DNA of 64,000 nucleotides, from assembly GCF_004365705.1 (NCBI RefSeq), contig NZ_SOBN01000001.1, forward strand, positions 3,024,001 to 3,088,000. Reading direction: 5' to 3'. The DNA is from Streptomyces sp. 846.5 (GTDB taxonomy: Bacteria > Actinomycetota > Actinomycetes > Streptomycetales > Streptomycetaceae). The translations under genes were made by a program, and so were the position numbers. Shown in pieces: positions 31,316 to 35,035 of this stretch. Positions within the stretch are counted from its first letter, which is position 1; the number at the start of each line of letters is the position of its first letter. Under the pieces are notes generated by a model. It saw only the letters and a list, made by a program, of their open reading frames with translations. It did not search any database and had not been told where the DNA came from.

Positions 31316-31323
31316 ACAAGGAG

Positions 31324-31397
31324 TAGCGGGGACAGGATTTGAACCTGCGACCTCTGGGTTATGAGCCCAGCGAGCTACCGAGCTGCTCCACCCCGCG
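31324..31397 (-). tRNA. Initiator tRNA-fMet (CAT), copy 2
   Basis: 74 nt, anticodon CAT in the loop CTCATAA. The anticodon stem has three consecutive G-C pairs (GGG/CCC), and the acceptor position 1-72 is an unpaired C-U, both marks of an initiator tRNA. CCA is not encoded. The sequence is identical to the copy at 31507-31580. Transcribed leftward, with a terminator at 31281-31315. Confidence 0.93.
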
Positions 31398-31410
31398 TCG
31401 TTGTGCCCTC

Positions 31411-31440
31411 ACCCTAGATCACCGGCGACCGGCACCGCAA
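31411..31440 (-). promoter_or_regulatory. Candidate promoter of initiator tRNA copy 2
   Basis: On the minus strand TTGCGG (31440-31435) and TAGGGT (31416-31411) are separated by 18 bases, 13 bases before the tRNA 5' end. This would let copy 2 be expressed independently after the terminator of copy 1. Confidence 0.5.
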
Positions 31441-31466
31441 ATCACTTCGCGGCCGAGCGAAAGCGA

Positions 31467-31495
31467 AAGGCCCGGTGCGCTGTGCACCGGGCCTT
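31467..31495 (-). terminator. Terminator of the first initiator tRNA gene
   Basis: AAGGCCCGGTGC (31467-31478) pairs perfectly with GCACCGGGCCTT (31484-31495), loop 5 nt. The core is the same as in the terminator at 31281-31315, showing that tRNA and terminator were duplicated together. Confidence 0.8.
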
Positions 31496-31506
31496 CCGAC
31501 AAGGAG

Positions 31507-31580
31507 TAGCGGGGACAGGATTTGAACCTGCGACCTCTGGGTTATGAGCCCAGCGAGCTACCGAGCTGCTCCACCCCGCG
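31507..31580 (-). tRNA. Initiator tRNA-fMet (CAT), copy 1
   Basis: 74 nt, identical to the copy at 31324-31397, with anticodon CAT, the GGG/CCC anticodon stem and the C-U mismatch at 1-72. CCA is not encoded. It lies 68 bases downstream of the truncated UPF0182 gene. A TACGGT hexamer at about 31594-31599 (minus strand) may be its -10 element. Confidence 0.93.
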
Positions 31581-31648: not shown

Positions 31649-33226
31649 TCAGCTGCCGGTGCCCAGCATGTGCTGCTGGAGCACAAAGAGTTCCTGCGGG
31701 TAGCGCAGCTCGGACCGCAGGCCGTCGACGATCGTGGCGTAGGGCCGGACTGTGCCGGGGAAGGCCCGCATCCAGGTCCGCAGCACCGGGTCCACGGTGT
31801 CCCACTGGTAGAGGGCCACCGCCCCGGTCGACACGTCGACGGTGGCCTTGACCGAGTCGCGGATGTAGTCGACCGCACCGCCGCCCATCGCAGTTCCGGC
31901 CCGCGCGGCGAAGGGATAGCTGTCGCTGGTCGTGTAGCCGTCCACCACCCACTCGGTCCGGCCGCCCACGGTGACCTGGTACGGGTCCGCGCCGGTACGG
32001 AGCCAGGGAGCGACCGCCTGCACCCGCTGCCGCGCGTCCTCGGCAGCCACCGGCACCTTCGCCGCCGTCTCCGAGGACGACGCCCCGGACGGACCGGTGG
32101 AGGGGGAGGCGGACGGGGACGCCTGCAGCAGCGCCCCGGCCCGGGGCGCGGCCGCCGCGACATAGCCGCTCATGCCGTACGCGGCTGCCGTGGCCGCGCT
32201 GTTCCGCGCCGCGTACGGCGCCTCCTTGGCCTGCTCGTCCGGCATGACCTGGAACTGCTGCACCAGGGCCGGGCAGACTGAGCCGATCAGCACCGAGGAG
32301 AAGGCCATCAGCGCCAGCCCGGCCAGCGGCAGCGCCCAGGTCCGGCGCAGCGGGGTCGCCAGGAACAGCACCGCGCAGATGACCGCGATCCCGCACATCA
32401 CCGCCTTGGCCGGCAGCACCGCGTTGGCCTCGGTGTAGCCGACGCCGTTCCAGCCGCCGGCCGCCCGGTCCGCCCCGGCCTTCACCGCCAGCGAGTAGCG
32501 GTCCAGCCAGTAGGCGACCGCCTTCAGGCCCACCAGCAGGCCGAGCAGCACCCCCAGATGGCTCTGGGCCGGGTAGGACAGCAGCCGGCCGGGCCCCTGC
32601 GTCCTGATCCCGCCGTACAGGTAGTGCACCAGCGCGGCGGTGAGCGCCGAGACCGCCAGCGCGACCAGGCCGAAGTCGACCAGGAAGCGGTACCAGGGGA
32701 GTTGGAAGACGTAGAAGGAGAGGTCCCGGTGGAACTGCGGGTCGGTGCTGCCGAAGGAGGTGCTGTTGGCCGCCGCCAGCCAGGTCTTCCAGGCGGCCGC
32801 GGCCGCCGCGCCCGCGACCAGCCCGGGCAGCATGGCCACGGCCACCAGCGCCCAGGCCCGGTGCCGGGCCACCGAGGTCCGGTAGCGCTCGAGATGCCGC
32901 TGCTCGAAGGACATGGCGCTCAACGGCGGGCGCAGCCGGTACGCCAGCCAGGCGTTCAGCGCGGTCGCCAGGGCCATCAGCAGGCCGAAGGCCACGAAGA
33001 GCATGCTCTGGGTCCGCAGCCGGACCGAGTAGACGCTGGAGAAGCCGACCGACCGGTACCAGACCCGTCCGGTCCACAGGTCGAAGGCGATCAGGGCCAG
33101 CAGGAACATCAGCAGCAGCACGAACAGGGTCCCCAGCAGCAACCGGGCAGCCGAGCGCGCGCCGGTACGTCCACGAAGGACGCCCGGCGGCCGACAGCCG
33201 CCGTGGTCGGGCATCTGGAAGACCAA
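31649..33226 (-). CDS. Short UPF0182-family membrane protein with internal and C-terminal deletions
   Basis: 525 residues from a TTG at 33226 (TGAGGTG upstream, matching the family start ..FQMPDHGG); a GTG at 33235 is possible. The first 330 residues contain the usual seven membrane helices (for example RPPLSAMSFEQRHLERYR and KAVAYWLDRYSLAVK). After NEQ/DEQAKEAPYAARN the sequence jumps, via a Pro/Ser-rich linker, to the late family block RQRVQAVAPWL...VDGYTTS...YIRDSVKATVD, then stops at LFVLQQHMLG. Family members have about 990 residues, so about 200 internal and 300 C-terminal residues are missing. The frame is intact, so it may be a functional short form. Confidence 0.75.
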   Translation of the reverse strand: MVFQMPDHGGCRPPGVLRGRTGARSAARLLLGTLFVLLLMFLLALIAFDLWTGRVWYRSVGFSSVYSVRLRTQSMLFVAFGLLMALATALNAWLAYRLRPPLSAMSFEQRHLERYRTSVARHRAWALVAVAMLPGLVAGAAAAAAWKTWLAAANSTSFGSTDPQFHRDLSFYVFQLPWYRFLVDFGLVALAVSALTAALVHYLYGGIRTQGPGRLLSYPAQSHLGVLLGLLVGLKAVAYWLDRYSLAVKAGADRAAGGWNGVGYTEANAVLPAKAVMCGIAVICAVLFLATPLRRTWALPLAGLALMAFSSVLIGSVCPALVQQFQVMPDEQAKEAPYAARNSAATAAAYGMSGYVAAAAPRAGALLQASPSASPSTGPSGASSSETAAKVPVAAEDARQRVQAVAPWLRTGADPYQVTVGGRTEWVVDGYTTSDSYPFAARAGTAMGGGAVDYIRDSVKATVDVSTGAVALYQWDTVDPVLRTWMRAFPGTVRPYATIVDGLRSELRYPQELFVLQQHMLGTGS

Positions 33227-33378
33227 CGCACGCACCTCACGACAGTGGTTCCAACCGGGCGCGGCGGGAGCAGCACCCCAGAAGGCAACTGAACGGACCC
33301 GCCTTCTGGTTCCCGGCCGCTGCTGCGGACGGGTCTCCGTGATGAGGTCGTTGCCTCCGGCGTGTGAGGATGGATGCC

Positions 33379-33930
33379 ATGTCGGAAACCCTCGAGGAGA
33401 GCCTTCCTCCCGCCGCCCGCCCGATCACCCGCGCCGTCCTGGAGATCGACGAGTACGCCGCCGGTCTCGGCTGGGACCAGCCCGCGCGCCTGTTCGCGCT
33501 GGTGGACACCGCCGCGCTGCTGAAGAACGAGCCGAGTCTGGCCCGCCAGCTGGGCCTGGAGCCGGGCACCACGGACCAGTTCACCCCGATCGAGCAGGAC
33601 GAGGTGCCCAAGGGCACCCCGCTGGACACCTTCCTGGGCACCATCGCCTGGCCCGACGCGGTCGCCGGCTGCGCACTGGTGGTGGAGCGGCTGATCCTGC
33701 CGCCGACCGCCGAGGCCAAGCTGCCGGAGGGCGTGTCGGAGAAGGAGCTCACCGCCTGGGTCGCCAAGCACCCGGAGCGGCAGGAGGTCCGGATGACCGT
33801 CGCGGTGCTGCGGGACGGCACCAGGGAGACGGCGCTGCGGCTGCGCCAGAAGGACTCCGCGCGCGAGGTGCTGACCGGCCCCGCCCTGGTGCCCGGGCTG
33901 GCCGAGGCGCTGCTCACCACCTTCGCCTGA
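33379..33930 (+). CDS. PPA1309-family conserved actinobacterial protein
   Basis: 183 residues; ATG at 33379 with AGGA eight bases upstream. A soluble protein lacking signal peptide and membrane helices, with conserved stretches RPITRAVLEIDEYAAGLGWDQPARLFALVDT and GTIAWPDAVAGCALVVERL (shown here in parts). The family is widespread in actinobacteria next to the PDZ/Lon-like protease and UPF0182 genes, but no function is known. It is divergent from the UPF0182 gene across 152 bases. Confidence 0.75.
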   Translation: MSETLEESLPPAARPITRAVLEIDEYAAGLGWDQPARLFALVDTAALLKNEPSLARQLGLEPGTTDQFTPIEQDEVPKGTPLDTFLGTIAWPDAVAGCALVVERLILPPTAEAKLPEGVSEKELTAWVAKHPERQEVRMTVAVLRDGTRETALRLRQKDSAREVLTGPALVPGLAEALLTTFA

Positions 33931-33942
33931 GCCGCCGGCGAG

Positions 33943-33997
33943 CTGCCCGCCTGCCCGCGTACCCGCCTGCGCGGTGCTACTTGCTGCAGGCGGGCAG
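33943..33997. terminator. Possible bidirectional terminator
   Basis: CTGCCCGCCTGC (33943-33954) pairs perfectly with GCAGGCGGGCAG (33986-33997) across a 31-nt loop. The right arm lies in the last codons of the PDZ protease gene. It would serve both convergent genes. Confidence 0.4.
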
Positions 33998-35035
33998 CGC
34001 CGACAGGTCGCCGGAGCGGATGTCGGCCAGGTCCGCCACCGCCTGCGACAGCTTGTCGACCTTGATCAGCCGCAGTCCTGACGGGGTGTCGGCAGCCGCC
34101 TCGGCGCAGTTGGACGACGGGGTGAAGAAGTACTGGGCGCCCGCGTTGCGCGCCGCGATGATCTTCATGGAGATGCCGCCGATCGGCCCGACGGTGCCGT
34201 CGGCGTCGATGGTGCCGGTGCCGGCGACGAACTTCCCGCCGGTCAGGTCGGTGGACTGCAGCTTGTCGACGATGCCCAGCGAGAACATCAGCCCGGCGCT
34301 GGGGCCACCGACGTCGCCCAGGTTGATGTCGATGCCGAACGGGAAGGTGTGCTCGGTGCCCGGCTGGATGCCGACCATGGCCTTGCCGGTGTCCGGGTTC
34401 TTCGCCGTGGTGATGGTGACCTGCTGCAGGTCCCTGCTGGTCTTCCCGGGCGGAATGACCGTGAAGACCACGTTCTGGCCCGGCTGGTGCTCGGTGACCA
34501 GCGCGGCCACCCGGTTCGGGTCGGTGACCTTGGTGCCGTCCACCGCGACGATCACATCACCGGCGTGCAGCTTGCCCACCGAAGGGCTGCCCTCGACCAC
34601 CGCGGACACCACGACCTCGGTGCCGACCGGGATGCCCAGCTGGGTGAGCGCCGCCGCCTTGGCGCTGTCCTGGGAGGCCGAGAACTCCTCGGCGTTCTGC
34701 GCCTCGGCCTGCTTCTCGGTCTGGTTGTCCGGGTACAGGTTGCTGTGCGGAATGACCGCCTGGTCGTGCCGCAGCCAGCCGGTGAACGCCTCGACCAGGT
34801 TCAGCGTGTAGTCCGCGCTGGTCACCTCGACCGTGGTCATGTTGAGGTTCCCGGTGGTCGGGTAGGTGTTCCGGCCGCTGATGGTGATCACCTGCTTGCC
34901 GTTCTGGGTGCCCAGCGTGTTGTACGTCGGGCCCGGACTCATCTCCGAGTAGGGCACCTTGATCAGCACGGCGGCGCAGAACAGCGCTATCAGCAGCAGC
35001 GTGGAGGCGAGCATCGTCGCGGAGCGGCGTGGCAT
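33977..35035 (-). CDS. PDZ-domain protein with Lon-like serine protease domain
   Basis: 352 residues: one N-terminal membrane helix (about residues 8-26), an extracytoplasmic PDZ domain (about 130-215, VVVSAVVEGSPSVGKLHAGDVIVAVDG) and a C-terminal S16/Lon-like domain. The catalytic dyad is Ser246 in GDVGGPSAGLMF and Lys291 in GISMKIIAA, 45 residues apart as in Lon. It is probably a membrane-bound quality-control or regulatory protease. The same gene adjoins UPF0182 in mycobacteria. Confidence 0.85.
   Translation of the reverse strand: MPRRSATMLASTLLLIALFCAAVLIKVPYSEMSPGPTYNTLGTQNGKQVITISGRNTYPTTGNLNMTTVEVTSADYTLNLVEAFTGWLRHDQAVIPHSNLYPDNQTEKQAEAQNAEEFSASQDSAKAAALTQLGIPVGTEVVVSAVVEGSPSVGKLHAGDVIVAVDGTKVTDPNRVAALVTEHQPGQNVVFTVIPPGKTSRDLQQVTITTAKNPDTGKAMVGIQPGTEHTFPFGIDINLGDVGGPSAGLMFSLGIVDKLQSTDLTGGKFVAGTGTIDADGTVGPIGGISMKIIAARNAGAQYFFTPSSNCAEAAADTPSGLRLIKVDKLSQAVADLADIRSGDLSALPACSK

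Follow-up and report, generated by a model that had tools for sequence, protein, structure and literature searches.

A shortened UPF0182 membrane protein and the graded reduction of its gene in Streptacidiphilus

Introduction

The window analysed here, a stretch of 64,000 nucleotides from Streptomyces sp. 846.5, harbors an open frame of 525 codons whose product resembles a UPF0182 protein of about half the usual length and whose stop codon lies close to a pair of tRNA genes. The initial annotation regarded it as a domesticated short form or the outcome of old deletions, and pointed to the neighboring tRNA gene as a common recombination point. The locus thus raises the question of whether the truncated gene is a functional variant, a decaying remnant or an artefact, and how the missing parts were lost.

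Results and discussion

Architecture of the shortened protein

The product matches the Pfam profile PF03699 (UPF0182) with 435 bits (E=6e-130; curated cut-off 27 bits) in two stretches, namely profile positions 3-321 and 534-661 of 770, whereas positions 322-533 and 662-770 are missing. Judged by this match it is a clear homologue of the family, but a reduced variant, as the full-length architecture spans profile positions 2-770 in about 950-1030 aa. Its length of 525 residues compares with 948-1029 in full-length relatives, which bears out the first reading of an open frame with about half the family length. The NCBIfam models PRK00068.1 and PRK12438.1 indicate the same family with scores well under their cut-offs; for PRK00068.1 the short form reaches 390 bits where at least 995 are required, and the full-length, 967-residue relative G017 also stays below with 936 bits. 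Only these two pieces were retrieved when the entire genome (9.03 Mb, five contigs) was searched with the profile, which documents a single UPF0182 copy and no second, full-length one.

The alignment with G017 shows that residues 1-379 and about 546-701 of the relative have been kept. The N-terminal third exhibits seven hydrophobic segments at the same places as in full-length relatives. In the middle of the protein, a low-complexity linker of 43 residues (13 Ala, 9 Ser, 5 Pro) takes the place of about 165 ectodomain residues. The C-terminus is shorter by about 265 residues, among them a Pro-rich and helical tail. The Pro/Ser linker and both gaps of the initial annotation are hence real, and its estimates of about 200 and 300 missing residues were close, if somewhat too high. 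Membrane core and ectodomain region 534-661 of the profile are homologous to those of full-length proteins. About 130 ectodomain residues remain, with a predicted alpha/beta core that carries the motifs WVVDGYTT and VKATVDxxTGxVxLYQWDxxDPVLxTW. Given the count of seven helices, the large C-terminal domain would be located outside the cell, and the lost material would be mainly extracytoplasmic.

The coordinates of all features are compiled in Table 1. Of the two possible start codons, the TTG is preceded at eight bases by GAGG, which resembles a ribosome-binding site, and is better placed than the GTG nine bases earlier; the stop codon occupies 31649-31651. Neither a promoter nor a terminator pattern was detected.

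Table 1. Features of the UPF0182 locus (positions in the window)
Feature	Position	Strand	Remarks
tRNA-Met, second copy	31323..31397	-	
tRNA-Met (CAT), adjoining the UPF0182 stop, ancestral neighbor	31506..31580	-	anticodon stem GGG/CCC
UPF0182 short-form CDS	31649..33226	-	525 aa; TTG 33226, or GTG 33235 (528 aa)
Truncated C-terminal end, residues 495-525, to the new stop	31652..31744	-	also in S. carbonis, lost in S. jeojiense
Retained ectodomain core, residues 396-494, PF03699 534-626	31745..32041	-	profile, alignment, models
43-residue Ala/Ser/Pro/Gly linker, length and sequence variable between species	32042..32170	-	alignment
Juxtamembrane segment FQVMPDEQAKEAPY..AAYGM, residues 316-352, common to full-length relatives	32171..32281	-	alignment
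N-terminal seven-helix membrane core (predicted), residues 1-319	32270..33226	-	hydropathy; PF03699 3-321
PPA1309-family protein, conserved divergent neighbor	33364..33930	+	
Membrane-anchored PDZ / Lon-C (S16) protease, conserved upstream neighbor	33977..35035	-	

Three states of the gene at one conserved locus

The PDZ-S16 protease gene, the divergent PPA1309-family gene, UPF0182, tRNA-Met and a Sel1-like gene follow one another in a constant order in all 14 available genomes of the genus Streptacidiphilus, and the short form sits beside the protease and PPA1309-family genes as its full-length relatives do. The same protein architecture was found in Streptacidiphilus jeojiense NRRL B-24555 (90% identity) and S. 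carbonis NBRC 100919 (84%), and because two further species share it, the short form is no accident of one genome. A full UPF0182 gene is absent from all 14 genomes: three harbor the present form, seven a membrane-only form and four none, always at the same site. The four gene-less genomes have just 78-109 nt at the expected place of UPF0182. A tree of four neighboring genes resolves the three states as three clades, each with an ultrafast bootstrap of 100, and places the clade of the present form as sister to the gene-less one. The reduced length is accordingly normal for the three-species clade, as the initial annotation had considered, but neither for the genus nor for the family.

The membrane-only form comprises 285-286 residues counted from its FQMP motif and ends directly after the last helix. 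It resembles the present form in locus, membrane core and shortening under purifying selection (see below), but is devoid of any ectodomain. Besides the whole C-terminal ectodomain and part of the N-tail, it lacks the 18 residues of loop 1-2 and 9 residues from loop 5-6, and the losses in the two loops come in addition to those of the present form. The other loops, cytoplasmic under the topology proposed above, have not lost a single residue.

In S. jeojiense the end has been cut further. After the motif FPGTVR its frame enters the 3' half of the first tRNA-Met and acquires a tail of 53 residues; the second tRNA-Met is intact, so that one of the pair is left (L033:5480-5659). On the tree, this deletion is later than the truncation common to S. 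carbonis and the genome investigated here.

A survey of 395 Streptomycetaceae genomes, the 14 of the genus included, revealed full-length UPF0182 in those outside the genus (about 380), judged by scores and for some genomes by a per-genome E-value, with the exception of G015 (shortened), G206 (broken) and G022 (none). The nearest outgroup G015 encodes 813 residues with a complete but shortened architecture. Several of its ectodomain segments and the C-terminal tail are shortened or lost (L046), as if the reduction had started earlier than the genus itself. In G206 the gene is distributed over three frames of a single contig (L088, L094, L097), which reflects either sequencing frameshifts or a pseudogene. 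The genomes G040, G044, G045 and G047, from two genera (g20, g21) of the same order, lack a UPF0182 match, apparently due to a separate loss. Across the phylum, 168 of 248 genomes contain UPF0182, and those weak matches that were re-examined proved to be divergent full-length proteins, located at contig ends or frame-broken. The family is thus present in most of the sampled actinobacteria and almost always full length, and the reduced genus indicates which of its parts are separable.

Selection and the origin of the truncation

The ratio dN/dS was determined with Nei-Gojobori counts, a simple counting method, for three pairs of the present form and 21 pairs of the membrane-only form. The former yielded 0.21-0.34 overall (three species), 0.23-0.43 for the membrane part and 0.34-0.40 for the linker region (pN/pS of linker plus juxtamembrane part, 0.38-0.43), and the strongest constraint is found in the retained ectodomain core with 0.055-0.115. 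Compared with full-length proteins, the order of constraint on core and membrane part tends to be reversed, which is only suggestive in view of overlapping intervals. The membrane-only form exhibits values of 0.05-0.24, similar to those of the neighboring PDZ-S16 protease (0.11-0.31). When the same number of changes was simulated under neutrality in 500 replicates, none came out as low for any of the short-form pairs and segments tested. The low ratios, together with the simulations, indicate that the short forms have been kept by selection and are not drifting. We therefore favor, with a probability of about 75%, that UPF0182 persists here as a functional, domesticated short form, one state of a clade-specific reduction in Streptacidiphilus, as judged from comparative sequence data. 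Both proposals of the initial annotation thus come together: domestication is supported by three species with dN/dS well below 1 in every segment, and old deletions correctly describe the history.

The graded states could alternatively be snapshots of slow pseudogenisation, in which the short forms are decaying remnants without current function on the way to complete loss. Such a course would be in line with the complete loss in the four sister species, with the junk tail fused to the S. jeojiense protein and with the shortened gene of the outgroup G015. Yet all ten short forms have open frames, the membrane-only protein has the same length of 285-286 aa in seven species, and dN/dS values of 0.05-0.34, unmatched by any of 500 neutral simulations, are difficult to reconcile with decay, which we consider unlikely. 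A deletion introduced by sequencing or assembly, an explanation that the initial annotation had kept in play, found nothing in its favor and has practically no probability left, as the same deletions recur in the separate sequence records of three species.

The tRNA genes invite the further explanation that recombination or integration at this site created the truncation. Their distances from the UPF0182 stop are 68 nt, precisely as first noted, and about 250 nt, and the S. jeojiense frame does run into the first of them. However, full-length orthologues end 63-123 nt ahead of the same tRNA-Met, and the adjacency is therefore ancestral and no explanation for the truncation. Moreover, both tRNA genes are intact in the present genome, the conserved neighbors stand at unchanged distances with nothing inserted between them, and the deletion in the middle of the protein is unrelated to the tRNA. 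Among the junctions compared, only the S. jeojiense deletion ends inside a tRNA gene. A recombination origin, as hinted at by the initial annotation, finds no support at this gene and is highly improbable. In both tRNA-Met genes (31323-31580) the anticodon stem is GGG/CCC and the first acceptor pair is mismatched, two hallmarks of initiators, and the copy beside the stop is probably an initiator tRNA. The searched tRNA-Met segment occurs in four exact copies in the genome.

A possible reason for the reduction, which would complement and not replace the functional short form, is adaptation to acid: extracytoplasmic parts would have been pruned since the outside is acidic. Streptacidiphilus is acidophilic (PMC7601586), and this and the mainly extracytoplasmic losses suggest such a reason. 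On the other hand, UPF0182 also occurs in Leptospirillum, an extreme acidophile (PMC7231039), and the correlation comes from one clade, which makes acid a rather doubtful motive.

A structural lead for the retained ectodomain core

An AlphaFold2 model based on a five-sequence alignment has a confidence of 60-81 for most of residues 391-520 and a low one for the membrane part. When the Foldseek candidates were re-compared, residues 390-475 matched the lipoprotein CD1622 (4exr) with Z 6.5 and YpmB (2gu3) with Z 6.2, at an rmsd of 1.9-2.0 A over 62 residues, but these are modest values of a size that also arises between unrelated folds. A cystatin/PepSY-like fold, in which a helix packs on an antiparallel sheet, is thus a lead only. 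The same region in the model of a distant homologue, likewise from a five-sequence alignment, retrieved cystatin-like chains at Z about 4. Foldseek itself returned nothing from the PDB at E<0.001, and a sequence search for a solved UPF0182 structure gave none at a meaningful E-value. A full-length Methylomonas model was set aside as too weak overall (pLDDT 39.5), as were matches of the membrane core to TMEM16 and similar chains, which were regarded as generic helical packing in the low-confidence part of the model.

At the sequence level, the core of the short form gives no match to PepSY (PF03413; cut-off 24 bits); homologous cores reach E 0.018 at best, and two of them that were checked scored 13.5-15.4 bits over 15 residues. 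With hhalign and the domains of 15 relatives, only the VDAxTGxV turn could be aligned (probability 22%), and no PepSY protein for a comparison profile was found in the own genome. YpmB and CD1622 are modest structural matches of the core, and its homologues have the VDAxTGxV motif, but the core differs from PepSY domains in falling under the Pfam cut-off and in a sequence likeness limited to about 15 residues. From this weak evidence, it may adopt a cystatin/PepSY-like fold.

Functional implications

Four species have lost UPF0182 altogether, and the gene is therefore dispensable in the genus. The functional short form would imply that the seven-helix core performs a task for which most of the ectodomain is not required, and that the extracytoplasmic losses followed from this part having become dispensable in Streptacidiphilus. 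The Ala/Ser/Pro linker would tether the kept ectodomain module to the membrane core, and the module, if indeed cystatin/PepSY-like, might speculatively bind a partner in the envelope or a protease. The adjoining PDZ-S16 protease is an obvious candidate, yet its gene is retained even in species without UPF0182, and the protease therefore does not depend on it. It is a tentative proposal, with less than even odds, that the deletion series reveals a core function independent of the ectodomain and that the kept module is cystatin/PepSY-like and binds an envelope partner. Streptacidiphilus provides in any case a natural deletion series, namely core plus tethered module, core alone and nothing, from which it could be learned which part does what, and the short forms are small, tractable versions for biochemistry and structural work.

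The published papers searched name UPF0182 in passing, and no function of the family was found in them. We take Rv3193c and S. coelicolor SCO5204 to be UPF0182 proteins. Reports on these two and on MSMEG_1959 point loosely to the cell envelope. Insertions in Rv3193c are under-represented in a strain without the divisome protein Rv0954 (PMC8093794), and the UPF0182 protein MSMEG_1959 is among the cell-envelope proteins of a ClpC1 interactome (PMC10433963). SCO5204 is an O-glycoprotein (PMC6593405), and its gene was hit repeatedly by insertions in mutants that make less actinorhodin (PMC6585502).
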